Source: Carnobacterium divergens DSM 20623 (GTDB lineage: Bacteria; Bacillota; Bacilli; Lactobacillales; Carnobacteriaceae). Taken from it: a DNA stretch of 64,000 bases. Positions 4,565 through 24,849 of this stretch are shown one piece after another. Made by a program: the position numbers and the translations under genes. Location: NCBI RefSeq assembly GCF_000744255.1, contig NZ_JQLO01000001.1, positions 2,232,001-2,296,000 of the forward strand, written 5' to 3'. The first letter of the stretch is position 1. Each line of letters opens with the position of its first letter. The notes under the pieces are model-generated. The model ran no database searches. It was not told the DNA's origin and worked only from the letters and a program-made list of their open reading frames with translations.

Positions 4565-6251
4565 TATAATTTACCTCGTCTATCTTAGTTATCAAGTTAT
4601 AAGCGTCTTTCATAGACTCAATTTTTTGTTTTTCTTCATAGCTACCTCGGATATATTCTTCTAATAACGGCTGAAGGTAATCCTGCCATAAAACTTCATA
4701 ACTATAGTCTAATTCAGGTAACTTTAAAAAGTAACTTGGTCCTATATGATAGTTAGAATTTAAATCATCTATAACAGAAATTTTCTCATTTAAAGAAATT
4801 AAACGATCAGAAGCACTTTCTATTTTATCGTCATCTAACTGTCCTTGCCACATAGAAAGTGTTTCATTTGCTTTTATTTCTATAAATCTAAATCGACGAC
4901 GCATAGCAAAATCAAAACTGTCTACTGAACGATCAATATCATTCATAGTACCAATAATATAAACATTTTCAGGAATATAGAAATTTTCATCATCTTGTCT
5001 AAGATTAGCATATTGCGTTTTTACCGAACCAGATTTTCCCCGATAACTTGGATCAATTGAAAAAAATAGTTCTCCTAATATCTTAGAAATTTCTCCGCGA
5101 TTAATTTCATCGATCACAAAAACAAACTTCTTCCCCTCAACACTATTAGATTCAGATGGTGCTAGATAGGGTACCAAACCAAATTTTTTCTTCATTTTCT
5201 CAATAACAACCAACGCTTGTCCACGATAATAGAGTTGCTTTTTATAATCAGAATTTTTATACAACTCGTATACATAGCGTTTAGGTAATACCCCACCATT
5301 AACACCACTATCATAGGTTACATTAAAATTATTCACACTATTAACAGTAAGGTAAGCCGTTTTCGTCACATATTCTTTTTCATCGGCTGTATTTACATGT
5401 GCAAGATATTTCGCCCACGATTCCTCAAAATTATCTTTTCCTCCGATACGAAGTGCTTCTATCGCTTTTCCACAGAATGACTTAAAAATACCATCTTGTA
5501 GCTCAAATCCCATTTCACCATCATCAGGCGTTACAGGTCGTAAACCTTCTACAAAATCAGTATAATCATAACTTGGATGAAACTGGACGAATTCAAATTG
5601 TTCTGAATCTTTTAATTCCTCTTTAGAAATACCTATAATCTCGGCTGCTATTTCTTTAGCTAAGTAACTCTTTCCCGTTCCTGGAGCACCACGTAAAATA
5701 ATATTCTTCGATTTTTCAAGCTTATATGCCAACTCATTTTTTTTATTCGTGAATTCCATACTTGATTCCTTCTTTCCTACATTTACAAAATCCTCATAAA
5801 AACGAATCAATGTTTTATTGGGCTTTTCTTTAGAAAATAAATCTAGTTCAGCTATCTTATAAGATATACCTAATTCTTTGTCTCTGTTCTTTTCTTTATT
5901 CCACTCTACTATTCTGAGCGAACTAATTTCAAAATTCTGGAAAGTTGTGCGGACATTTGCCCAATTTCCATTTGGTAAACTATAATCAAAATAAGGGATT
6001 TTACTACTGTTCTCACCACTAGTTGGACCGTATGAGCTATTGCTAAATAAATGAATATGGTAGTCAATGCCTGCAATATTTAGTACATCATAGTTTTTAA
6101 CACGACTAAATTTATTATTTTCAAACCCATCAATTCCTATAGTTGTTTTTTTATTTTCGTTGCTTTTAATATTTATATTTGCTTGTTCAACAAAGCGCTT
6201 TAAGAGATATTTAAATTCTTTATATTCATTTCCAGTATCTTTGAAATCCAT
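4548..6251 (-). CDS. mcrB: McrB-family AAA+ GTPase subunit
   Basis: A 567-residue motor of type IV restriction. Walker A GAPGTGKS is at 188-195, Walker B FVFVIDEINRGE near 375-386, and the McrB-type signature MNDIDRSVD near 433 is followed by an arginine-rich MRRRFRF. The first 160 residues are a separate domain, probably DNA reading, unlike the short E. coli McrB N-terminus; its specificity cannot be read. It is the first gene of mcrBC and begins 65 bases from the SCC-like att site at 6316-6342, so it sits at an element boundary. McrB assembles as a GTP-driven ring and recruits McrC. Confidence 0.9.
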   Translation of the reverse strand: MDFKDTGNEYKEFKYLLKRFVEQANINIKSNENKKTTIGIDGFENNKFSRVKNYDVLNIAGIDYHIHLFSNSSYGPTSGENSSKIPYFDYSLPNGNWANVRTTFQNFEISSLRIVEWNKEKNRDKELGISYKIAELDLFSKEKPNKTLIRFYEDFVNVGKKESSMEFTNKKNELAYKLEKSKNIILRGAPGTGKSYLAKEIAAEIIGISKEELKDSEQFEFVQFHPSYDYTDFVEGLRPVTPDDGEMGFELQDGIFKSFCGKAIEALRIGGKDNFEESWAKYLAHVNTADEKEYVTKTAYLTVNSVNNFNVTYDSGVNGGVLPKRYVYELYKNSDYKKQLYYRGQALVVIEKMKKKFGLVPYLAPSESNSVEGKKFVFVIDEINRGEISKILGELFFSIDPSYRGKSGSVKTQYANLRQDDENFYIPENVYIIGTMNDIDRSVDSFDFAMRRRFRFIEIKANETLSMWQGQLDDDKIESASDRLISLNEKISVIDDLNSNYHIGPSYFLKLPELDYSYEVLWQDYLQPLLEEYIRGSYEEKQKIESMKDAYNLITKIDEVNYNEDPR

Positions 6252-6315
6252 TTGTCTTAACCACCCTCAATTTTGTATCGTCTAAATACACTAAAACTAA
6301 TATATTATATTTCCT

Positions 6316-6342
6316 AAAACCTCACTACTTATGATAGGGTTC
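6316..6342. other. SCC-like attachment site, internal copy
   Basis: These 27 bases repeat 24361-24387 in the same orientation with one mismatch. Read on the minus strand they contain codons for the last five RlmH residues, EPYHK, and the stop, followed by GTGAGGTTTT, although no rlmH is present here. SCC elements of staphylococci integrate at this point of rlmH (orfX) and duplicate the same core (TATCATAAGTGATGCGG-like). Here it reads TATCATAAGTAGTGAGG. It marks the left end of the rlmH-proximal element. Confidence 0.8.
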
Positions 6343-6397
6343 TGCGTAACACAAGTGAATGATATTATTTTACATCTATTGAATTTTAATTATTAAT

Positions 6398-9187
6398 TTA
6401 TTCCTCTTTTAATATTATAGATTTATCAGTATCTAATTTTAAACGTTCTCGCTCTTCTCTTATAATACGTTTCACTATTGCAGTATCTGAAATATCCACT
6501 GATTGGGATGTTTGATTAGATATAAATGAATCTTTTGCAAAATTGTCAAAAACTTGCTGTTTTGAATCTAGCATTTCCATCATTGGTTCATCCACACTTT
6601 CTTCAGTCAAAAGTCTATACACAAATACGGGATTTGTTTGTCCCATCCTGTAAGCACGAGCGATAGCCTGAGTCTCAATTGATGGTTTAATTTGTGGTTC
6701 ACAAAATATAATAATACTTGCGGCTTGGATATTTAATCCAAAACCTGCAGCTAATACTTGTGCTGGAAGAACTGCACCCGCAGGGGCCTGTTCAAAATCA
6801 TCTAGTATTTTTTGACGACTACTAGTGCTAACACCTCCCATTATAGGAGGAAGTGCTCTATCACCTAAAATATCTATTACCGTATCTATTACGCTACGAA
6901 AAAAAGAAAAAACTATTATTTTCTCACCATTTTCTCGTGCTTCATCACAAATTTCTAACAACCGTATTTTTTTGGGTGAATATTCAATAGATTTGCCCAT
7001 CCAACCACAACGTCTCATTAGCATAAATTTTCCATCCGCAACAGCCTGTCTATACAATTCTTTTTCTCCATTACCAAAAGATACCCATTCTTCTACTTGT
7101 GTCAACGGGGGTAATTCATTCAAAACATCCTCTTTCTTACGTCTTAAATACACTGGAGCAATAGCTTCTCGATATTTCAAAGGATTTGTATAGAAATCCT
7201 CACTAATTATATTTTCAGCAATATTTGGCTGCAGTACTTTTATCAAAGAAGTCATCTCTTCTACATTATTTTCAATCGGAGTTCCCGTCATATACATCAC
7301 ATACGGAGTTCTTTTTGCAATTGAATTAACTGTTTTAGATCGTTTAGCAAGGTGATTTTTCACATAATGAGCCTCATCTACGATTAATAATTTTAATTTT
7401 AATTCTTCAGGAAATTGAAGTCGCTGTAAGGTTTCAAAGGTCGTTATTCCTACTCCTCCCTTATCTATCCAAAGTTTAGTCCAGCTATCTCTCGATGCAC
7501 CATGAAGTCTATAGGAATTTAATTCACTATGCTTTTTTATCTCTCGTTCCCAATTTACTATAATACTAGCAGGACAAACAACCAAAAATAATGAGCTATC
7601 TTTTATAGCAAGGTGGCTAATTACACCTATAGCTTCTAAGGTTTTCCCAAGACCCATTTCATCACCAATCAAAACTTTTTGTTGAACTAGAGTGTATCTG
7701 ACAGCAAAATTTTGCCATCCACGTAATGATGCTTTTAGTTTGGAAAAATTAAGATCAATTTTAGTCATTTTATCTAAAATGTTTTTTGCTATTTCACTAG
7801 TTCCTGAATTATCAGGACTTATAATACCACCAAATTTTTCAAGTACAGCATAGGAACTAGCAGCATTTCCTTGGAACCAAGAAGTAACATTCTGATCCTC
7901 CAAGAAATTAATATCTATTTTAAACGGATAATATTTTTGCTTAATATGCTCAGCTAATTCATATCCATCAGAAACTTTTCTCTTGAAATCTTCAAAAAGG
8001 TCTAAGTTGGAATCTAAAGAGCACTTTATCCATAATAATAGGATTTGTTTTTTTGTAATTACTTTTTGTAGTGGGAGTTCATCAGTCACTTTTATAAATT
8101 TTTCTAACTGATTGAAAAGCTGCTGATTTTCAACAACAATATACAGTGATTTGATTAATCTATGTTGTATGTTAGTAATGTGATGAGGGTCTATTTTATA
8201 TACTGGATTAGCCGCTAATTTCCTCCTAAATGAATCCAAAGCATTTTGAATCACTTCACTTTTTTTAGGTCCAACACCATCTAACACATCAAATCTTCCA
8301 TCATAATGTTCTAATTCTTTCATATTATTAAAGGATTGAGTTAAAATTGTTACTGGTAGACCTGGGTATGCATCAATAAAATCCTTAAGCGGAAAATTTT
8401 CAAATCGTTGTACTAGAATTTCATTTGCAAATTCCGAACTTAAATTTTTAATATCATTAATTACTTTCTCATATTTAATACTTAACTTCTTTGTTTCCTC
8501 ATTGAATAAGTATAAGTAATTTAATTGTTCTAACAGTTCCTCTAAAGGGGGAACCAATTTAGGATTAGCTAGAGAAAATCCACAAATACCTTGATAGATA
8601 TCTTGTATTTTGTCAAAATCTTCATTAATTATAGCTTTTAGTTTTTCAAGTGGCACATGTACTATAATTTCATACTTATTTATGGAATTAGATAAGTCAC
8701 TTTCTCGGAGAATCTTATTAATATCAATAAGATTATCTACTTGTTGTAAATACTCTTCTTTACCTTGTTTTGTGCTAAAAAATCCTCGTATTTTTCCTTT
8801 TGGTTCTTCAGGTATTGACCTTTCCAATTTCAAATTACCTATTTCTTCATCAAAGGTATTAAACTTATCTTGATTTTGGTACAAAGAGAATGCAATTTCT
8901 AAATTCTGTTTTAAGACTTTATCTTTTGCTATATCTTGTAAAACAAACATACCGTGCTGATATACTTCATGACTAAAATTCAACAAATTATTTTTCTGAT
9001 CATAAAAAAAATTAGATTGTATTTTGCTTAGATTTTTTTGAGGGCTAGTCAACTCATAAAATGTATCGTTAAAAATATTTTTCAACTCATTAATTTGGTT
9101 TTGATACCTAGTAATTATAGTCATATGCTCACGATATTTAGCTAATTGATCAGCTACTGAATCCTTATCAGGCAAACTTACGCCCAT
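6398..9187 (-). CDS. SNF2-family DNA translocase with long N-terminal domain
   Basis: A 929-residue protein. The C-terminal half is an SNF2 motor: motif I DEMGLGKT at 509-516, motif II DEAH at 604-607, motif III MTGTPIENN, and the second RecA lobe with ARAYRMGQTNPVFVYRL. The first 480 residues are mostly helical; DVLDGVGPKKSEVIQNAL near 300-317 resembles a helix-hairpin-helix DNA-binding motif. ATG 9187 has an AAGGCGGG ribosome site. A zinc-ribbon/TM gene and a helical-protein gene lie immediately upstream on the same strand. SNF2 motors occur in several anti-phage systems such as DISARM, but none of the other DISARM genes is here. Its own nuclease domain is not apparent. Role in defence is inferred from location. 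Confidence 0.85.
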   Translation of the reverse strand: MGVSLPDKDSVADQLAKYREHMTIITRYQNQINELKNIFNDTFYELTSPQKNLSKIQSNFFYDQKNNLLNFSHEVYQHGMFVLQDIAKDKVLKQNLEIAFSLYQNQDKFNTFDEEIGNLKLERSIPEEPKGKIRGFFSTKQGKEEYLQQVDNLIDINKILRESDLSNSINKYEIIVHVPLEKLKAIINEDFDKIQDIYQGICGFSLANPKLVPPLEELLEQLNYLYLFNEETKKLSIKYEKVINDIKNLSSEFANEILVQRFENFPLKDFIDAYPGLPVTILTQSFNNMKELEHYDGRFDVLDGVGPKKSEVIQNALDSFRRKLAANPVYKIDPHHITNIQHRLIKSLYIVVENQQLFNQLEKFIKVTDELPLQKVITKKQILLLWIKCSLDSNLDLFEDFKRKVSDGYELAEHIKQKYYPFKIDINFLEDQNVTSWFQGNAASSYAVLEKFGGIISPDNSGTSEIAKNILDKMTKIDLNFSKLKASLRGWQNFAVRYTLVQQKVLIGDEMGLGKTLEAIGVISHLAIKDSSLFLVVCPASIIVNWEREIKKHSELNSYRLHGASRDSWTKLWIDKGGVGITTFETLQRLQFPEELKLKLLIVDEAHYVKNHLAKRSKTVNSIAKRTPYVMYMTGTPIENNVEEMTSLIKVLQPNIAENIISEDFYTNPLKYREAIAPVYLRRKKEDVLNELPPLTQVEEWVSFGNGEKELYRQAVADGKFMLMRRCGWMGKSIEYSPKKIRLLEICDEARENGEKIIVFSFFRSVIDTVIDILGDRALPPIMGGVSTSSRQKILDDFEQAPAGAVLPAQVLAAGFGLNIQAASIIIFCEPQIKPSIETQAIARAYRMGQTNPVFVYRLLTEESVDEPMMEMLDSKQQVFDNFAKDSFISNQTSQSVDISDTAIVKRIIREERERLKLDTDKSIILKEE

Positions 9188-9453: not shown

Positions 9454-10428
9454 CTACTCTGCAAGCAACTCTTCATGCTTATCAATAAACTTAAGTATTG
9501 ACTCAGATGATTCAATGACTTCATTAGATAAAAACTTGAATGGATTAGTCGCTATAGATAAATATTGATCCAGTTCTAATGCGTCATTACCAGAAAAGTT
9601 TTGAAGAATAATCGCTTTAAAGTTATCTATAGTGTAATTCAACATTTCATACTCGCCTAGTTCATATTGAGTTGCAATTTGATAATAAAATGCATCTTTC
9701 ATATAAGATAAATTTTCAAGTGCAGTTTGGGCTAGTTTGTCCCCAGCATCAGCCGATAAACCAGTAGTTATAAAAGGAATTTTATTCTTAGATTTAGAAG
9801 TAATTAAATGCTTTTTTGTTTCAAGTAGTTGATTTAATAGTAGATTCTTTGCATTGGTAGCTTGACTCATAGACTCTCGTAACAAAACTTTTTTAGTCTC
9901 GGCATCTTTTGCAAGAATAGCCATTTCAAATTTTTCTTTTGCAGATTGAACTTCTGCGTACCTATTCAGATCAAAATTTCTATTTACTTGATCTACTTTC
10001 TCTCCTAATACATCTAAAGTATCACTTATCTGTTGTAATTTCATTGCTAAACCCAAATCTGCAATTGAAGGACCTAAATTTGTTGGTAATTCCTTAATTG
10101 GAATATTTTTAACTATCTTTCCCGTATCAGAATTAACAAATTGAGCATACTTAAGGCCTGATTCTTGATACGTTCCAAAAGATATTGTACCTTTTGCAAG
10201 TTTCTCAGCCATATCTTGCGAAATATCAAGAACCATTTCCCCTTGCTTCATAATCTGCTCTACAAAAGAGGGGATAGTCATTAGTTGAGTAGCTATGGCA
10301 TCAATAAATTTTGCTACATTTTTTTGTTTGTATCTCTCATAAATATTACTTCGGAGTGCCTCATTCTTATTTACTAATACAGTACTATCAATTTCACCAT
10401 TTTGATTTATATATTTTGCATTTTTCAT
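9454..10428 (-). CDS. Uncharacterised helical protein, possible defence-system subunit
   Basis: A 324-residue, cytoplasmic-looking protein with no membrane segment. Most of it is amphipathic helix, with a coiled-coil-like stretch around KLQQISDTLDVLGEKVDQVN. No catalytic motif is recognisable. ATG 10428 is preceded by GGAG. It is the first gene of the three-gene set ending in the SNF2 motor, with gaps of 49 and 37 bases, and probably shares their transcript. The function is unknown; a sensor, effector or scaffold role in defence would fit the location but is inference. Confidence 0.55.
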   Translation of the reverse strand: MKNAKYINQNGEIDSTVLVNKNEALRSNIYERYKQKNVAKFIDAIATQLMTIPSFVEQIMKQGEMVLDISQDMAEKLAKGTISFGTYQESGLKYAQFVNSDTGKIVKNIPIKELPTNLGPSIADLGLAMKLQQISDTLDVLGEKVDQVNRNFDLNRYAEVQSAKEKFEMAILAKDAETKKVLLRESMSQATNAKNLLLNQLLETKKHLITSKSKNKIPFITTGLSADAGDKLAQTALENLSYMKDAFYYQIATQYELGEYEMLNYTIDNFKAIILQNFSGNDALELDQYLSIATNPFKFLSNEVIESSESILKFIDKHEELLAE

Positions 10429-10513: not shown

Positions 10514-10757
10514 TTACCTCATCTCATCATCCAACGGTATAATAACTTCATCTAAAACTTCACGCCACTCACGTTTGATAGCTTGTGCATAGCTGAAAGG
10601 TTTTCCTTCTGGATGAATTTCTTTGTAACTCTCATACTTTTTACTTTCAATGATGGCTTTCATATTCGGAATCCGTTCTATACCAATCATAAATTTAATA
10701 GCAAATGAATAAAGCTCCAACTCCGAAACAAACCAACCTTTAGAAAAGTCACTTGTT
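10514..10757 (-). pseudogene. Relic of an hsdR 3' end
   Basis: From about 10757 down to 10514 the minus strand reads the last 80 or so residues of HsdR (for example SYAQAIKREWREVLDEVIIP), nearly the same as the end of the intact hsdR at 12796-15957. Upstream of 10757 the similarity stops abruptly. The copy therefore lacks everything but the tail. With the hsdR end it brackets the Mrr-like pair as a direct repeat of about 245 bases. The differences between copies show it is not brand new. Confidence 0.85.
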
Positions 10758-11157: not shown

Positions 11158-11898
11158 TCATCGAATAAACCAATCTAATTCCTCAGAACCAATAGAAGAA
11201 AAAGGAACCTTACTTTGTTTCAATTCTTCTATTGGGTTAAATAAACTTATTTGAAATTTATTCTTTATTTGTGAATGCTGAATATCTTTCAGATGTCTTT
11301 GGCTAACTCCTACTAATTCAATATCATTGTTCTCTTCCTTTAAATATAACTTTTGAAATTCCATAGCATAATACTTGCTTTCAAAGAGGAAAAGTATATC
11401 ATTAAACAAAACATTTTGTTCAAGAAAACCCTCTCCAGCTTTATTTATAAACATCCAGAATGGATCTCCAATGGTTCTATAGTTTGGAAAAAGGTATTTT
11501 TCGTTTTGGCTTAAAGAGAACGATCTAAAATCAGAATATCTAATAAATTTAATATCTTCATGTTCAGAGACCAACTTAGCTCCTCTTTGTAAATTTGATT
11601 CTGACAAGAATATTCCATTGATATTACCAACACTTTTTAGTTTATATGCAAAATCAGTTAATTGGCTCTTATTTATAGACTTATTCCAACTTTTGCATTC
11701 AATCGCAACTCTATATTGCAGACCAAAATGCTCATATTCATAAAGTACATCAAATTCATGTGTTGCTTTATCTGAACCAATTAAAGGAATTCTTTTAGAG
11801 ATTTTTGCATCAATTCGTTCATCTTCAGCAATCTTTTTACATGTTTCCTCTATAATATCTTCAAGTACTCTTCCTCTATTTTTAAATTTACTAAACAT
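11158..11898 (-). CDS. Mrr-like restriction endonuclease with IGDPFW C-terminal domain
   Basis: About 246 residues from ATG 11898 (GAGGAG nine bases upstream). The N-terminal half has the Mrr-type PD-(D/E)xK core: HEFDVLYEYEH followed by YRVAIECKSWN, giving the D...ECK catalytic set. The C-terminal half begins IGDPFWMFINK and includes GVSQRHLKDI, shared with the upstream gene. The start overlaps the upstream stop by eight bases (ATGTTTAG), so the pair is translationally coupled. Likely role is cleavage of foreign or modified DNA, with the C-terminal domain for pairing or recognition. I do not know a named system with this two-gene layout. Confidence 0.7.
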   Translation of the reverse strand: MFSKFKNRGRVLEDIIEETCKKIAEDERIDAKISKRIPLIGSDKATHEFDVLYEYEHFGLQYRVAIECKSWNKSINKSQLTDFAYKLKSVGNINGIFLSESNLQRGAKLVSEHEDIKFIRYSDFRSFSLSQNEKYLFPNYRTIGDPFWMFINKAGEGFLEQNVLFNDILFLFESKYYAMEFQKLYLKEENNDIELVGVSQRHLKDIQHSQIKNKFQISLFNPIEELKQSKVPFSSIGSEELDWFIR

Positions 11899-12634
11899 AA
11901 TTTTCTCCTCTAAAATATGATTTAAGAATATTTTTATTACCAGGAGCATATATTAGCGGTTCGTACTCATCACTCTTCAAGCTTCCGTATCGTGGAATCA
12001 ACAATCCCAACTTATGACTAGTCGAACCAGTCATACCAGATAGCGTTCTTAAATGATTTTGACTTAATCCATATACTTCATATCCATGATTTCCGTCAGC
12101 AATTTCTTTTGCTTGTTTATATGATAAAAATAATGGAATCATATCCCCACATATATAATAGTTTCCCTTGTTCCCCACATCTGCATCCGTTTCCATTATT
12201 ACCCAAAAAGGATCTCCTATAACGGTTTCGTCTGGTAACATCATCCCAAAACGTTTAATCATACTTTTAATTACTTCTTCTTGAAATACAAATTTACTAG
12301 TTTTCAATTTGTATTCGGCTACTGCTATTGCTTCCTCCGATATGCATAAATCATAATATAGGACACCTTTTGATTTAAATTCCAAATCATCTAAAGTGTT
12401 AGCTAGTTTTAATACATCTTGTGTATTAACCTCTCTACCAGAAACAACATTTATTACTGTTCTTTCAGTATTATTCATTTGAGTAAATTCCAAATAAATA
12501 TCTACATGATTTTCCATTGCTTTACCTTTAATAATCTGATTAGTAACTAATCTAGGTTTGTAGACATTCTCAGAATCAAAATAGCTACTCAACATTCCAA
12601 CAACAAGATTGACAAGAGCTTCGTGTTTTTTCAT
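11891..12634 (-). CDS. Partner paralogue of the Mrr-like endonuclease, catalytic site apparently lost
   Basis: A 247-residue protein from ATG 12634 (AGGAGG upstream). Its C-terminal half parallels the downstream protein: IGDPFWVIMET, then DMIPLFLSYKQAKEIA, then GLSQNHLRTL. The N-terminal half has a similar predicted fold with HVDIYLEF, but where the partner has ECK this one reads VINVVSGREVN, so the catalytic Lys/Glu pair seems absent. An active and an inactive paralogue together suggest a heteromer in which this subunit recognises and the other cuts. This is inference from two sequences only. Confidence 0.6.
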   Translation of the reverse strand: MKKHEALVNLVVGMLSSYFDSENVYKPRLVTNQIIKGKAMENHVDIYLEFTQMNNTERTVINVVSGREVNTQDVLKLANTLDDLEFKSKGVLYYDLCISEEAIAVAEYKLKTSKFVFQEEVIKSMIKRFGMMLPDETVIGDPFWVIMETDADVGNKGNYYICGDMIPLFLSYKQAKEIADGNHGYEVYGLSQNHLRTLSGMTGSTSHKLGLLIPRYGSLKSDEYEPLIYAPGNKNILKSYFRGENYV

Positions 12635-12795: not shown

Positions 12796-15700
12796 TTACC
12801 TCAACTCGTTATCCAACGGTATAATAACTTCATCTAAAACTTCACGCCATTCACGTTTAATAGCTTGTGCATAGCTGAAAGGTTTTCCTTCTGGATGAAT
12901 TTCTTTGTAGCTCTCATACTTTTTACTCTCAATGATGGCTTTCATATTTGGAATCCTTTCAGTACCAACCATATATTGAATAGCCGACGAATGAAGCTCC
13001 GTATCTGAAACAAACCACTCTTTAGAAAAGTCTTCAATTGCTTGATCTCTTGCTTGTGTAAAGAAGTGTCTCTTAATTGCAAAAATATCTTCATTTTTAT
13101 CTAACGTACCATTATCCATAGCATTTAAAATTTCACGATAGACTTGCTTAACTCCTTCAATCTTATTCAGTTTCTGTAAGGCCTTCTCGATTTCTTCTCG
13201 AATATCTGGACTGTTGGCTAAATACGTTCCTAATAGTTGATCGATATAAGTTGAATCAATATCATAGAGCTTGATACTATTATCTCCGTAAAATTCAATC
13301 CCAGAAAAATCAATGTTTTCTTCTGGATTTTCTTCATTTTGTTCAACTAACGAACCTTTGACAGTATGATAAACTCCAACCTGTTCTTCTAAAATCCCAA
13401 CTTGGTTTTGAAGCGTTTTCGATTGTTCCATGTCATCATTATAGTCATCATAGGTCACTAGTGCTTCATAGGCATTATTCAATTCTTGGAAGGCTTTAAC
13501 ATATTCCACTCTAGTCTCTAATGGGGTATGTTCGTCTACTTCACCTGGTACGAGTACAAACTCATTCATTTTCTTATAGGCTTGTTTAAAGCGTTTTTTC
13601 GATTCATCGTAAGTTGGATAGACTAATCCTGACTCTTCTTTTGCTTCAGAATACAGTTTCGTTGCAGCTGCTACGTTTTTCTCCATTGTATGTGGTTTAC
13701 GGAATGTTACAATCAACCCTTTTGTTTTTTCAGGATAGGTCCGATTGGTACGAGAAAAGGCTTGAATTAAGCCTGCATATTCTAAATTACGGTCCACAAA
13801 CAGCGTTTGAATCGTCGGAGCATCAAAGCCAGTCAATAAACGATCTACAACAATCACTAAATCGACTTGTCGACCAAATTGTTTAAACTCAGCTCTTTTT
13901 CTAGCTAAGCGATTATTGATATCCCCATTGTAGCGATCAATGTCTGCTAACGTCCATGCAGTTCCATAGTATTCATTATATTCTTGAATAATCTCTTCCA
14001 TTTCATCTTGTTGTTCTTTCGCATTCTCTGTATTTTCATCTAAAGAATAGGTAATCGCAATACGAGGAAAATCAGGATCATTCATCGTCCGTCCTTCTCG
14101 AATCGGATGATGTGAAAATTCATTTTGTAGCCAGTCTTCTTCTTTAGTCATTTCTTTTATCGCTTTATAGTAACGTTTTGCATTAGCAATGGAACTTGTT
14201 GTTAGGATAGCTGATTTCTGTGGACGACCATTGGCAAAATCAAACTTCATATAAGAATTATCTGGGCGGAATATCTTATGAATGACTTTTTGAATATGTT
14301 CATCCTTTTCATACACACCAGGATTAATGTATTCTTCCTTTTTACTTCCATCCATTGTATCAATTATTTGGTTGATTCTTTCTGGTGAAAAAGTCGCATA
14401 TTTTTCCACTTCACGTAACTTGTGATGGATTTGATTGTTTAATGAAGTTGGCTCAATAGTATCTTCATGTTCAACTTGAAAACCTAATACGGCGCCATCT
14501 TCTAACGCATTTTTAATGGTGTAAGTATGTAAAACCTCACCGTACTGATCATGTGTTGTTCGTGCCAATTCCCCTTTGACTTGTTTCTTATTTTCATCAA
14601 AAATTGGCGTACCTGTAAAACCAAACCATGTTGAGTTTGGAAAAAATTCTTTGATTTCTTCCATATTTTCTGAACCCAAGGCACGGTGACATTCATCCAC
14701 AATAAAGACAATGTGTTGTCCCAGTAGTTTTTGAAAACGTTTGGTTCCTTTTTTTTCTTCTTGTTTCTTAGCGGATTTTAAAGCAGCATCTAATTTTTGA
14801 CGGGTAGTTACTATTACGACATTTGAATTGGCATCTGCTAAAAGTGTTTCTCTCAGTTCCTTTGCATTCCCAGTTCCCACAATTAAACTATTTGATTTGG
14901 CATTTCCTGAAGAAATTCCTGTATTAAATTCAGATGCGAACTTAGTAAATTCACTCGTTGTTTGGTTATCTAAGTCTTTTCTGTCTACTAACATAATTGT
15001 CCGGTCAATTCCCGATTTTCTGGCTAATAACTTAGTGGAAACAAAACTGGTTAATGTTTTCCCTGATCCTGTAGCATGCCACACATAACCCGATTGATGT
15101 TTATTGGCAGCTGTAAACAAGGCTTCAATAGCGTGAACTTGATAGGGATGCAATACCATTAACGTTTTATTGTCTTGGTCTTCACTAACAATCGTATAGT
15201 TGGCAATTAGTCTGTGGGCGTGAGGAATATTCAGCACTTGTTTGCAAAATTCATAGAGATTATCTACTTTACGATTTTCTTTCGTGCGCCAACTAAAAAG
15301 GAATTTCTGATGTAGCTCTTTAGGCATTCCATTGGCAAAGTAACGTGTGGTTTGTTCATTAGAAACAACAAACAGTTGCAAAGTAGAAAAAATATTATTG
15401 CGGAATACGCCTTCTTCAGCATACTTCTTTACTTGATTAAAAGCTTGATACACACCATCTTTTGCGGTTACTTGTTTTAATTCAATTTGAACGATTGGCA
15501 AGCCATTGATTAATAATGTGACATCAAAACGACGGTCTCGTCCCTCACTACTACTTTTTTGTTTGGCAATCTGATGAACTACCTCGTAAGAAAAGAATCC
15601 GCCACTATTGTATTGATTGGAATAGAGCACTAAAGACATAGAGCCTAAAGTAGGATCTTCCCTTTCAACAGTGATTCGAGCAATTCCATTTTCACCTTTA

Positions 15701-15957
15701 AGCCATTTAGCCGCATCAAAAGGTGTCTGAGTTCGCAATAGAAATTCTGTTTTAATGGCTTCAAATTCTTTGTCGGTTAATGAAACTTCACCGATTTCAG
15801 AAAGGTTATTATGGACAATTTTGTTACGCAGATTATCCCAAAGATCTTCTTCTGACTTTAATTCAGGGCGATAGGTCCATTGATTATGACCTTCTCCAAG
15901 AACTTGAATAAGCTGAGCTTCAACTTCCGCTTCATCACGATGTGGAATTTTATTCAT
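12796..15957 (-). CDS. hsdR: Type I restriction enzyme R subunit
   Basis: A full-length 1053-residue HsdR. The N-terminal nuclease has DVTLLINGLPIVQIELKQ (the ELK of the PD-ExK core); the motor has Walker A HATGSGKTLTS, DECH box VDECHRALG, and motif III GFTGTPIF. The helical C-terminus is the part duplicated at 10514-10757. It cuts unmodified DNA after ATP-driven translocation, but only as part of R2M2S. ATG 15957 lies 14 bases after the hsdS stop with an AGGAGGT site, so it is the third gene of an M-S-R operon. The gene is intact, but hsdM carries a stop. Confidence 0.95.
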   Translation of the reverse strand: MNKIPHRDEAEVEAQLIQVLGEGHNQWTYRPELKSEEDLWDNLRNKIVHNNLSEIGEVSLTDKEFEAIKTEFLLRTQTPFDAAKWLKGENGIARITVEREDPTLGSMSLVLYSNQYNSGGFFSYEVVHQIAKQKSSSEGRDRRFDVTLLINGLPIVQIELKQVTAKDGVYQAFNQVKKYAEEGVFRNNIFSTLQLFVVSNEQTTRYFANGMPKELHQKFLFSWRTKENRKVDNLYEFCKQVLNIPHAHRLIANYTIVSEDQDNKTLMVLHPYQVHAIEALFTAANKHQSGYVWHATGSGKTLTSFVSTKLLARKSGIDRTIMLVDRKDLDNQTTSEFTKFASEFNTGISSGNAKSNSLIVGTGNAKELRETLLADANSNVVIVTTRQKLDAALKSAKKQEEKKGTKRFQKLLGQHIVFIVDECHRALGSENMEEIKEFFPNSTWFGFTGTPIFDENKKQVKGELARTTHDQYGEVLHTYTIKNALEDGAVLGFQVEHEDTIEPTSLNNQIHHKLREVEKYATFSPERINQIIDTMDGSKKEEYINPGVYEKDEHIQKVIHKIFRPDNSYMKFDFANGRPQKSAILTTSSIANAKRYYKAIKEMTKEEDWLQNEFSHHPIREGRTMNDPDFPRIAITYSLDENTENAKEQQDEMEEIIQEYNEYYGTAWTLADIDRYNGDINNRLARKRAEFKQFGRQVDLVIVVDRLLTGFDAPTIQTLFVDRNLEYAGLIQAFSRTNRTYPEKTKGLIVTFRKPHTMEKNVAAATKLYSEAKEESGLVYPTYDESKKRFKQAYKKMNEFVLVPGEVDEHTPLETRVEYVKAFQELNNAYEALVTYDDYNDDMEQSKTLQNQVGILEEQVGVYHTVKGSLVEQNEENPEENIDFSGIEFYGDNSIKLYDIDSTYIDQLLGTYLANSPDIREEIEKALQKLNKIEGVKQVYREILNAMDNGTLDKNEDIFAIKRHFFTQARDQAIEDFSKEWFVSDTELHSSAIQYMVGTERIPNMKAIIESKKYESYKEIHPEGKPFSYAQAIKREWREVLDEVIIPLDNELR

Positions 15958-15970
15958 TTAGCTGTACCTC

Positions 15971-17185
15971 CTATACAAACATCTTTTGTAAGAATGCTTT
16001 CTTAGTATTTTTTAGAATTTCTAACTCTCGTTGATGAAGAGCGATAGTATCGTCAAGTTGTTTGAAGAAGTCTCCGATTTTTCTTTGTTCATTAATATTT
16101 TTAGGGACTGATAAATTCATCTTTTGTAAATCTGGAATATTAATTGATTGTACCGTAGTTCCTGTTTTAACTATAGATTTTAAAATGAAATTTTCTTTGG
16201 ACTGTATTTCTCCAACCAGAAAATTTGTGTCTAACTTATCGTTGTCGAAGATTAATGCTTTAATATCTTGATTTATTGCTACATCAACAGTTGGTATACT
16301 TATTGGGAATCTCTTAGCTAATATGCCGCTTCGACTTACTATTAAAGGTGTTCCTGCTGATACCATTTTAGTAGTATTATCGCTCACTGCTTTTTCTGTA
16401 ATTTTAAACGTGCCCTTATTAACATATTTGGCCTTAATTTCTTGAGAAGACAGCCAAATAATATCTCCATTCCAATATGTTTCATTACCTTTAAATGGGG
16501 TTGCTCCACCAATCAATTTTATTTCATCCGAAAACTTACGCTGTTCCCAAGCGTCATTAAATCCTGGAAAACGTACTTCTGGAACTTTTTCTCCCTCTTT
16601 TGGAAACATCTTTTGCAAGAACCCTTTTTTAAGTTCTTTCAACAAATCTAACTTACCCTTATAAAGTACGATAGTGCTGTCCATGTTATTAAAAAAATTG
16701 GCAATCTTATCTTGTTCATTATCATTGGGGAGGTGAATAGCAATTTGATAGAACGAATCCAATTCAAGATTTCTTCGTACAAGACTTGCACCTTGAGATG
16801 AGGCATTTTTATACGCTTCCAACATTCTTTGTGTTCTTAACTGCGGACCAATAAATTTTGAGTTAGCTTTTGTAAACTTAAAAGTTTTATAGCTAGGTGA
16901 TACTAACCCGACACCGATATTATTAATATTTATATTTCCTAACCATAGATTTTGTGGTGAGAGAACTAAACAACCGTCTTCAATAATTTTATACCCTTGA
17001 TTTGATGTACCAGAAACACGACCTTTTCGTATTTCCATACCACTATTAGTGCTAGATAAAACTTTATATTCATTTTCTATTTTAGATTTAACGCTAAATT
17101 CCTGTAGAATATCTCCCAATTTACGTTGTTTCCAATCGCCAGTAAACTCTGGAAAACGTATTTCTGGTACTTGATTACTCTTCAT
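15971..17185 (-). CDS. hsdS: Type I restriction specificity subunit
   Basis: A 404-residue HsdS with two target-recognition domains (about 1-160 and 205-370), each followed by a conserved helical spacer ending in a repeated FLQKMF motif. Both repeats start with similar PEVRFPGF or PEIRFPEF segments. ATG 17185 overlaps the end of hsdM (11 bases); an upstream TTG at 17206 would extend it inside hsdM and is less likely. The two domains determine a bipartite methylation target that cannot be read from sequence. It appears intact. Confidence 0.93.
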   Translation of the reverse strand: MKSNQVPEIRFPEFTGDWKQRKLGDILQEFSVKSKIENEYKVLSSTNSGMEIRKGRVSGTSNQGYKIIEDGCLVLSPQNLWLGNININNIGVGLVSPSYKTFKFTKANSKFIGPQLRTQRMLEAYKNASSQGASLVRRNLELDSFYQIAIHLPNDNEQDKIANFFNNMDSTIVLYKGKLDLLKELKKGFLQKMFPKEGEKVPEVRFPGFNDAWEQRKFSDEIKLIGGATPFKGNETYWNGDIIWLSSQEIKAKYVNKGTFKITEKAVSDNTTKMVSAGTPLIVSRSGILAKRFPISIPTVDVAINQDIKALIFDNDKLDTNFLVGEIQSKENFILKSIVKTGTTVQSINIPDLQKMNLSVPKNINEQRKIGDFFKQLDDTIALHQRELEILKNTKKAFLQKMFV

Positions 17186-18770
17186 GATCAAATACCTCCA
17201 ATGCACCTTTTATCCATTCTGCATCTTCGGAACTAAATTGTAGAGAAGAAATCGTTTCAAATAACTTCTTTTCTAAAGCACGTTTCTCTTGTCGAATCTC
17301 TTTCATTTCAGTTCCAATCGTCGCCATATCAATCGGTGCTTCCTCTTCAAAAGTATCTACATAACGTGGAATATTCAAATTGTAATCATTTTCTTTGATT
17401 TCATCAAAACTTGCTACATGTGCGTATTTTTCAACTGATTTTCTTTCTTTATAAGTAGAAAGAATTTTTGTGATGTTTTCTTCAGTTAATTTATTTTGAT
17501 TTTTTTCTTTGACAAAATCACTACTAGCATCAATAAATAAAACGTCACGCGTTGTACGACTTTTTTTCAAAATGATAACCGTTGTTGGGATAGAGGTCCC
17601 AAAGAAGAGATTAGCTGGCATACCAATAATCGCATAGATACTGCCATCTTCTAATAATTTCTGTCTAATAGTACCTTCTGCTGCACCACGGAATAAAACA
17701 CCATGTGGAAGAACAATTGCCATTGTTCCTGTATCTTTCAAGTGATAAAAGCCATGAAGTAAGAAAGCAAAGTCAGCTTTTGATTTTGGTGCTAATTTTC
17801 CATAACGATTAAAACGAGAATCATCTAAAAATGTATCATCCGCAGACCATTTAGCTGAATAGGGTGGATTCATTACAACTGAATCAAATGTATATGGTTC
17901 ATCTGTAGGCCAATCTTTATTCAGAGTATCTCCATTCCGTACTTGCATATCTTCTGCATCAACACCATGCAAAATCAAATTCATTTTAGCTAAATTGTAG
18001 GTCGTCGTATTTAATTCTTGTCCATGATATTTTACATTATCTGGATACGTTAAATAGTTACGAACATTTAACATCAGGGAGCCTGAACCCATCGTCGGAT
18101 CAAATACACTGAAAAGATTTTTGTCTTCTTGTCCTAGTGTAACAATTTGTGCCATCATATCTGACACCATATGCGGCGTGTAGAACTCTCCTGCCTTTTT
18201 CCCAGCTTCTGATTCAAACTGACTAATTAGGAATTCATATGCATCACCGATTACGTCGCCTTCATGTCCAAGAACATCTATGTCATTTAACTTTTTCAAA
18301 ACTTCTGTAATCGTTACATTCCGTTGTTGCTCATCTGATCCAAGTTTTTTCGACTGTAAATCAACATCATCAAATAAATTATTAAATTGACTATATTTTG
18401 ATGATAAATCAATGAAGGCCTTATTCAAGTCATTTAGTTGGAAAACATTCTGCTTTGCTTGATTTGCTAACACATTAAATAAATAGTCCGGTTCAATATC
18501 GTATCCTAACGTGTCAATTAATGTATCAATCAAATCAGCTTTTGTGGCATCATCAGAAAGTAACTCTTTATACAGTTCCGTCTGCTTATCTATTGTGTCG
18601 TATTCCTCTAAAGGTTCATCTGCAAGTTCGACTACTTTTTATACTAATTTATCTGAAAGATACTTATAAAAAATCAATCCTAGCAAATAATTTTTATATT
18701 CTGAAGCATCCATTTTACTACGAAGATTATCAGCTGCACTGAATAATCGTTGATTCAATTCTACACTCAT
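17175..18770 (-). pseudogene. hsdM: Type I restriction methylase hsdM with in-frame stop at codon 44
   Basis: ATG 18770 (GAGGAAG upstream) reads [20 protein letters not shown] and on to SDKLV, then TAA at 18639-18641, then continues in the same frame with KVVELADEP to the normal end. Total length of 531 positions matches HsdM. Downstream motifs are intact: FDPTMGSGSL for SAM binding and NPPY for catalysis. The stop removes the N-terminal part only if translation restarts; the first non-ATG candidate is TTG 18533. As written no complete M subunit is made, so both modification and restriction by this operon should fail unless the stop is suppressed or is a sequencing error. Confidence 0.85.
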
Positions 18771-21568: not shown

Positions 21569-23223
21569 TTAATTCACTCCGTTCGGAAATATATTTTCGT
21601 TATTAATACTAGGATTCGAGTTAGGACTTCCCGAATGAGACGGAATACCTGGCTTATATTCACTGTTTGGTATTTCAAATCCTGAATAATCACCTGATTG
21701 TAATCCTTCATGCCTTTTTCCATAGATTTCGTACTGCTCTTTTATCCATTTTTCTTTATCTTTCTCACTGATAAATGTATGCTTCTCATCTATCCAATTT
21801 AGAGCATCCTTTATATAAGGAATTTTATTTACACCCGGAACGTCGGATAAACCTCCACCTTGACCAAAATAATTCAATGTACCAGCTAAAGCACCTACTG
21901 GTCCTCCATATTGTGCTCCTTCTAATGGCCCACTATTTACTAAAAACTTATTAATTCCCCCATATAAGGCCATACTTTCATTTCCATACGCTGGACTTTT
22001 AGGATTTGTATACTCTTCATAGGCATACGCAGTAATTGTTAAGGCATCTCCACCATATGCCAAGCCTTCTCTTGTTCCTGGATGTTCTTTTATAAATTTA
22101 GAGATAGGTTTAAACTTCTTAAATAATGTTAAACCAACTTTTGAACCTGCAATGACTTTAGCTCCACTTGGCTATGTGACAGTATACTTGTCACATAGCC
22201 AAGTGGAGCTAATACATCCCATCCTTTATCGCTTAAATGCAATAAATTCCCATATACTTTAGCTTGGTTATCCAAGGACATTTTGCCTACATATAAACCA
22301 AATTTTGGATTGTTTAAGATACTTTTAGCAATATTTTTAGGCAATTGGTTCCATCTTTCTTGTGCGATAAAAATACCCAATGCTGCATCTTGAAGTCCTT
22401 TCGGAAATTTATCTAAAGCCGCAATGACATATCCAAATAGTCGGTCATTATTTTTAATTTTTTCAATCGCTGCTGCTGGATTTTTTGAAAACAGGTCATT
22501 TAATTCTTTGATTGCTGTATTCTTTGCTTTGTCTTCCATTTCACCGACTTTACCAGCATCTTGAAGTGATGTAAACCAGTTTTTCTCAACCCCATCGGGT
22601 AACGTATAGCTTCCATCACTGTTAACAATCGTTGCGTTTAATACCATAACACCTTGCATAGCTATTTTCATATCACTTAAACTATCGCCAAACAGCCCAC
22701 TTGTTTCAGCAGAAAATTGTTGCAACTTTTGTAATTTCTTTTCCAAATCGCGTATACCTTCTTGTAAATCATTTGACATTCTTCCTAAATTTCTCTGAAA
22801 TTCAAACAATGAATCTAGCACTTTAGCAACAGGATTATTTCTTGACAAAGTTTTCGCAATAACAGCGGCGGCATCTACTGATAGTTTCATAGATTTTTTT
22901 ATCGCGATTTGCTGATTCAGATTATCTTCATCTAAATAACCTTCACTTGAAATAACTTGATCTGCAGACTGATATTTCTGAAGATCTTGTTCGATTGAAT
23001 CAATAGCTGTAGTTACTCTTGTAATCGTTGGGATGATTAGCTCACTGAATAACCCTTTACCTGCTGTGTAAGCAGCCCCTGATAATGTTTTACCATCTAT
23101 AGCCGCCACTACTTTTTGACTTCCAGATTTTAATTGGTTAACAGCTTCTGCTCCACTTCTTAAATTACTAGTCAATGCTTGTATCAAATTAGATGAATCA
23201 GCACTTGAATATTTTAATCCCAC
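21569..23223 (-). pseudogene. LXG-domain type VII toxin, frame broken by palindromic insertion
   Basis: GTG 23223 (AAGGAGTGAAG upstream, overlapping the previous gene) opens an LXG-type N-terminal region of about 200 residues: helical, beginning GLKYSSADSSNLIQALTSNL. The frame reads to WDVLAPLGY and then stops at 22129. A second frame continues with SGAKVIAGSKVGLTLFKKF and on to the end at 21569. Between them is a perfect 24-bp inverted repeat (22158-22212). Removing 35 bases restores a continuous frame WDVLAPSGAKV, so the insertion explains the break. The tail has GGPVGALAGTLNYFGQGGG, a glycine-rich membrane-type region. The disrupted gene would yield the targeting domain without the toxin tail. 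Confidence 0.8.
22158..22212. repeat. Perfect 24-bp inverted repeat with 7-base loop inside the LXG gene
   Basis: Arms 22158-22181 and 22189-22212 are exact reverse complements (AGCTCCACTTGGCTATGTGA in the left arm). The outer nine bases of each arm seem to belong to the gene; the inner 35 bases with TGGCTATGTGACA ends look inserted. It may be a transposon footprint, a MITE-like insert or a template-switch event. Confidence 0.85.
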
Positions 23224-24360: not shown

Positions 24361-24387
24361 AAAACCTCACTACTTATGGTAGGGTTC
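24361..24387. other. SCC-like attachment site at the rlmH 3' end
   Basis: These bases cover the last five codons (EPYHK) and stop of rlmH and ten bases beyond (GTGAGGTTTT on the minus strand). They are repeated at 6316-6342. In staphylococci the same point is the target of ccr recombinases of SCC elements. This copy is the chromosomal boundary of the island. Confidence 0.8.
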
Positions 24388-24849
24388 CCCCTTCATAATC
24401 CGATACCCTCGATAAACCTGCTCCACCAATACCAACCGCATCAACTGATGAGGCAATGTCATTTTCCCAAAGGAAATTTGTGTATTGCTGCGTTTCAGAA
24501 CCGCGTCACTCAGACCCAATGATCCGCCAATCACAAATACCAACTGACTTTTTCCACTAATCCCTAGTTGATCGATTTCTTTTGAAAATTCTTCAGAAGT
24601 ACGTTGTTTTCCTTCAATTGCTAAAGCAAATACATAGGCATTTTCTGGAATTTTACTTAAAATACGCTCGCCTTCTTTTTCTTTTACTTGAATCATTTCA
24701 GCTGCACTCAATTTTTCTGGTGCTTTTTCATCAGGTACTTCAATCAATTCGATTTTACAATACGCTCCCAGACGCTTCACGTATTCCTCAATTCCCATTT
24801 TTAAATATTTTTCTTTTAATTTTCCCACACTAATTATTTTGATATTCAC
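24370..24849 (-). CDS. rlmH: 23S rRNA (pseudouridine1915-N3)-methyltransferase
   Basis: A full-length 159-residue SPOUT methyltransferase: [12 protein letters not shown] is the SAM-binding knot loop and the C-terminus ends [12 protein letters not shown]. It methylates pseudouridine 1915 in helix 69 of 23S rRNA on the assembled 70S ribosome. It starts at GTG 24849, with AAAGGAG upstream. Its 3' end carries the attachment site of the island, whose insertion leaves the coding sequence complete. Its position next to htrA and the wal genes is conserved among relatives. Confidence 0.97.

Follow-up and report, generated by a model that had tools for sequence, protein, structure and literature searches.

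An Mrr-type nuclease and its putative pseudonuclease paralogue form a recurrent gene pair that may serve as a two-part defence system

The window, which is the whole 64,000-nucleotide stretch of Carnobacterium divergens DNA analysed here, contains two adjacent genes, B and A, whose coordinates are collected in Table 1 with those of their surroundings. A sequence-only reading of this DNA had described the genes as overlapping by eight bases, sharing a C-terminal domain, and differing in a nuclease motif (ECK) that one has and the other has lost, and all three points hold. The overlap is exactly 8 bp. Gene A starts with the ATG at 11898, and a GAGGAG ribosome-binding site lies ahead of it, inside the end of gene B; the longer open reading frame of gene A (11158-11949) begins upstream of this RBS-backed ATG. 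Translational coupling of B and A via the overlap is likely, and the identical 8-bp overlap is found in Enterococcus ureasiticus and Listeria marthii. In plain blastp, the C-terminal domain is common to both proteins (E 1e-07 over 88 residues). Profile-profile comparison extends the homology to about the full length (99.8%, E 1.2e-29, 233 columns), and identifies B as a full-length paralogue of A.

Table 1 Gene pair, its domains and motifs, and flanking features in the window
Feature	Position	Strand	Remark
Gene B, putative pseudonuclease subunit	11891-12634	minus	247 aa, first of pair; no Pfam, PADLOC, NCBIfam or PHROGs family
Gene A, Mrr-type nuclease subunit	11158-11898	minus	246 aa, second of pair; Mrr_cat PF04471, E 2.1e-6
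Overlap, gene B end and gene A start	11891-11898	minus	8 bp
A, catalytic motif E67-C68-K69 codons	11692-11700	minus	invariant in 13/13 A proteins
A, E13 codon	11860-11862	minus	
A, D50 codon	11749-11751	minus	
B, N62-V63-V64 (equivalent of ECK)	12443-12451	minus	no catalytic E or K; lysine lost in 13/13 B proteins
A, C-terminal Tic22/SseB-like domain (IGDPFW ... GVSQxHL)	11161-11484	minus	2z0r Z 9.0, 90 residues
B, C-terminal domain, same predicted fold (IGDPFW ... GLSQxHL)	11894-12232	minus	2z0r Z 8.6, 88 residues; Tic22 4e6z Z 5.9
hsdR, complete	12796-15957	minus	upstream of pair
hsdS	15971-17206		upstream of pair
hsdM	17175-18533		upstream of pair
hsdR 3' fragment, 237 bp	10514-10750	minus	downstream of pair; 90% identical to 12796-13032
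rlmH	24370-24849		
rlmH 3' end, attL-like copy of 27-bp direct repeat	24361-24387	minus	
attR-like copy of the repeat	6316-6342	minus	TATCATAA core of SCC/ECC att sites

A scores 28.3 bits against the Mrr_cat family (Pfam PF04471; curated cut-off 21), and carries the full E, D, ExK catalytic set of PD-(D/E)xK nucleases. Across the 13 A proteins aligned, E13, D50, E67, C68 and K69 are all invariant. At the corresponding sites, the 13 B proteins have V, I, L, K, T or H for E13, N, K or R for E67 (once E, leaving 12 of 13 replaced), V, I or T for C68, and V or I for K69. The site of D50, occupied by D or once by E, is the sole catalytic position kept. The ExK motif is absent from B, with the lysine missing in every protein, and where A reads IECK, B of the window reads INVV. 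The Pfam search with window B gave no PF04471 match at E<=1 and no credible match at all, and the best PF04471 score among the other B proteins is 17.9 bits, under the cut-off. Judging from its residues, B has lost the canonical catalytic site, and the loss is an old one.

B has conserved features of its own. A B-specific block, Y-x-E-F-x-Q-M-N-N-x-E, lies at the hairpin preceding the lost motif, and D45, E49, E57, K38 and K89 show little or no variation among B proteins. Migration of the lysine has precedents in the PD-(D/E)xK superfamily, and B could still be active if its metal site had moved to D45, E49, E57 and an invariant lysine (K38 or K89), in which case both chains would cut. We regard this as very unlikely, because in B the strand that once held ExK has become hydrophobic (NVV, KTI, ETV) and the glutamate of helix 1 has gone as well.

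For the presumed pseudonuclease and its active partner alike, single-chain models are of moderate confidence, with unreliable inter-domain placement (pLDDT 79.5 for A and 77.1 for B; pTM about 0.5; 15 and 10 sequences, respectively). The A model matches AF1548 (1y88) with Z 15.1, and the same structure is the closest match of the B model (Z 10.9, 104 residues, rmsd 2.8). From this match and the profile homology to A, B is predicted to retain the nuclease fold. The earlier suggestion of an active and an inactive paralogue is thus upheld by sequence, fold and conservation in 13 pairs. Residues 1-26 of A are modelled as one helix preceding the nuclease strands; the Pfam search of A gave Mrr_cat alone, with no Mrr_N domain detected. 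A sequence search against solved structures gave nothing useful.

The C-terminal domains of both models appear to resemble Tic22/SseB folds. No sequence family reached its cut-off for this domain, the best being DUF3110 (E 0.015 on a stand-alone relative). SseB domains are related to Tic22 peptide-binding chaperones and have been linked to conflict systems (PMC9503650), and the domain in A and B may act in peptide binding or pairing. It is also encoded alone (133-143 aa) in two Peptococcaceae (L035 9989-10420 and L037 9950-10351), upstream of genes that, judged by eye, are apparently for electron transfer.

The B profile was scanned against 84,980 species genomes. Eleven B-family loci were found in this collection, and A directly follows B in all of them. 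Their hosts are Enterococcus ureasiticus, E. thailandicus, Lactococcus piscium, Listeria marthii, Listeria floridensis, three Streptococcus, one Peptostreptococcaceae genome and two Bacillota assemblies. Together with the window and two loci from a survey of the order (L007 and L010), the pair occurs at 14 loci, answering the question raised beforehand of whether the pairs recur or the homologues never occur together. Gene order is invariably B then A, with a spacing of -8 to +38 bp. In the survey of the order (345 genomes), the nine genomes with family A are the same nine with family B, and in the Streptococcus and Enterococcaceae surveys every family-A gene is adjoined by B. Two loci have a broken member, as B is truncated beside an intact A in Streptococcus sp. 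121 (L028) and A is frameshifted beside an intact B in Listeria floridensis (L029). Unless these are draft errors, one partner can be lost, at least briefly.

In the tree, A proteins form one clade and B proteins form one clade (support 100/100). Protein distances among A and among B are correlated with r of 0.92, and none of 5000 permutations gave a value as high. For A, the dN/dS ratio lies within 0.10-0.23. For B, five out of six comparisons give 0.13-0.34; the sixth (0.45) is between near-identical sequences whose differences are too few to be informative. B is under purifying selection, and its divergence among pairs reaches down to about 35% identity. The lost catalytic residues would also fit a functionless duplicate in decay, but this is scarcely credible given the purifying selection, the single origin, the presence of B in every pair and the B-specific invariant residues. 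A decayed pseudogene is likewise contradicted by the selection and conservation. Recurrent pairing, single clades, correlated distances and purifying selection together argue that B is a maintained pseudonuclease.

The pair lies between a complete hsdR, upstream, and a short hsdR fragment, downstream, which is in frame and shares its stop with the complete gene. The sequence-only reading had placed the pair as a cassette between two hsdR 3' ends. The flanking by hsdR stands, but only the downstream copy is a bare 3' end, whereas the upstream copy is the whole gene. Past the fragment there are a 324-aa gene, a gene for an SNF2 helicase similar to DpdE/DrmD models, and genes like McrB/McrC. The 324-aa gene (9454-10428, between the fragment and the helicase) matches no family. 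Membership of a type I RM operon does not hold for the pair in general, because no homologue of the window hsdR was found in the other pair loci.

Location of the pair on an island is supported. Two 27-bp direct repeats, 26/27 identical, delimit a cassette-chromosome-like island of about 18 kb at rlmH, and the pair lies within it. The TATCATAA core of the attR-like copy matches a published att-site core (PMC6222049). No Ccr-type large serine recombinase (PF07508) was found in the whole host genome. Small genes surround one for an LXG-domain protein (22129-23223, Pfam E 1.3e-8), likely forming an interbacterial toxin cluster adjoining rlmH. In Listeria floridensis, rlmH-end repeats bracket 5.9 kb (L029 6463-12415) with SIR2-HerA and the pair; here the SIR2-HerA genes are interrupted, besides the frameshift in A. 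From these flanking repeats, the pair appears to travel as rlmH-targeted cassette cargo in the window host and L. floridensis. The E. ureasiticus pair (L019) is possibly such cargo as well, as att-like sequences are present at 11560, just past A, and at 16276, past SIR2-HerA, as if cassettes were stacked, with a large serine recombinase of interrupted frame nearby (5048-6748).

Recognised defence genes were found within 10 kb of the pair in 8 of the 12 loci inspected, a raw count without background control. They are type I RM and McrBC in the window, PDC-M46 and SIR2-HerA in L019, SIR2-HerA in L021 and L029, PDC-S53 in L023, GmrSD in L024, DUF4297-HerA in L025, and Gabija in L027. Four of these 12 loci (L019, L021, L025 and L029) have a HerA-type system, made of proteins other than A and B, near the pair, and the pair could be an accessory module of SIR2-HerA or DUF4297-HerA. 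That is highly unlikely, however. No HerA was seen near the pair in the window, nor were homologues of these HerA proteins found in the other loci; gene order and effector vary between loci; and in E. ureasiticus an att-like sequence separates the pair from SIR2-HerA, as if they were on distinct cassettes. HerA systems and the pair are better read as shared cassette cargo.

Viral carriage was considered and rejected, since the B profile gave no match to viral contigs and tblastn of A and B gave none to phage records. The A profile gave weak Mrr-domain matches alone among viral contigs, and plasmids yielded distant solo homologues alone.

Solo genes with an ECK motif and the same C-terminal domain are present on Pantoea plasmids and in Clostridium, Holdemania and Methanosarcina (L003, L004, L014, L015, L030, L031, L033 and L034), as well as in a Streptococcus and a Listeria-group genome. 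They have the two-domain architecture of A in one gene instead of two. Because they have this C-terminal domain without B, a partner is not intrinsically needed. In two of three Methanosarcina genomes (L032 and L036), the gene is duplicated in tandem, and in the tree these duplicates belong to neither the A nor the B clade. The first tandem copy reads ECQ and is fused to TPR repeats in one (L032 7688-10339), and is without E13 in the other (L036 1880-3546). Duplication followed by damage to the first copy seems, from these sequences, to have begun twice.

We consider it somewhat probable that A and B are the subunits of an obligate heteromeric nuclease that would defend against incoming DNA. 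Obligate pairing and co-inheritance make a physical A-B heteromer a reasonable inference, and DNA would be its substrate. A would supply the sole PD-(D/E)xK active site. B, with its fold kept and its metal site gone, would be the recognition and/or regulatory half, like ERCC1 for XPF. The C-terminal Tic22/SseB-like domains would most likely hold the chains together and/or bind an infection-signalling peptide. Since there would be one active site per heterodimer, the heterodimer would be expected to nick, or to cut both strands as a 2:2 assembly. More tentatively, the pair could be a two-gene defence system, so far without a name, in which an Mrr-type nuclease has its pseudonuclease paralogue as the sensor or specificity half and is triggered via the paired peptide-binding domains.

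The main rival is that B is an antitoxin-like inhibitor that silences a self-harmful A, and that its removal or occupation by a phage would release A. B is upstream of and coupled to A, as for many antitoxins, the pairing is obligate, and B is similar to A and could form a dimer with it. Even so, we hold this rather unlikely. The intact A beside a truncated B in Streptococcus sp. 121 mildly suggests, barring sequencing error, that A alone is non-lethal, and the solo ECK homologues persist without B. Moreover, B matches A in length and carries a conserved motif of its own at the nuclease hairpin, which exceeds the needs of a simple inhibitor.

If A and B do work as a heteromeric nuclease, the pair would show a route from a one-gene nuclease to a controlled two-part system, with the separate Methanosarcina duplication for comparison. 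Eukaryotic repair offers well-known cases of an active nuclease completed by a pseudonuclease partner; to our knowledge, free-standing partners of this kind are little described in bacterial defence. This small pair is conserved across Lactobacillales and clostridia, falls outside the defence-system models searched, and would be easily tested as a two-gene clone.

Neither window A nor window B had a match in PADLOC-DB 2.0.0 at E<=1, in agreement with the earlier remark that no named defence system of this layout was known to its author. NCBIfam and PHROGs had no family for A or B, and no description of an active/inactive Mrr pair was found in the limited body of literature searched. In fold and E-D-ECK residues, A is like the Mrr_cat (PF04471) nucleases, including AF1548, and the nuclease domains of MspJI and Can2/Card1/Cdn1. 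It differs from the Mrr family in being without a detected Mrr_N and in having an extra Tic22/SseB-like C-terminal domain and a fixed pseudonuclease partner.

A catalytic subunit with a second subunit is also the layout of active/inactive nuclease heterodimers such as XPF-ERCC1 and of the two-subunit restriction enzymes R.BspD6I, BbvCI and BtsI (for BspD6I and BtsI, PMC6261011 and PMC2909958), although there is no evidence that the pairing has a shared ancestry. The restriction enzymes named have a catalytic part for both strands, unlike the proposed A-B heteromer, and most pair loci are without a dedicated methyltransferase. Inactive REase (iREase) domains of Orc/CDC6-HerA conflict systems (PMC10853773), and NA-iREase1 in Pfam, resemble the pair in that a dead REase is beside an active one in a defence context. 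Those iREases are domains within an ATPase, whereas B is a free-standing full-length paralogue in a unit without ATPase.
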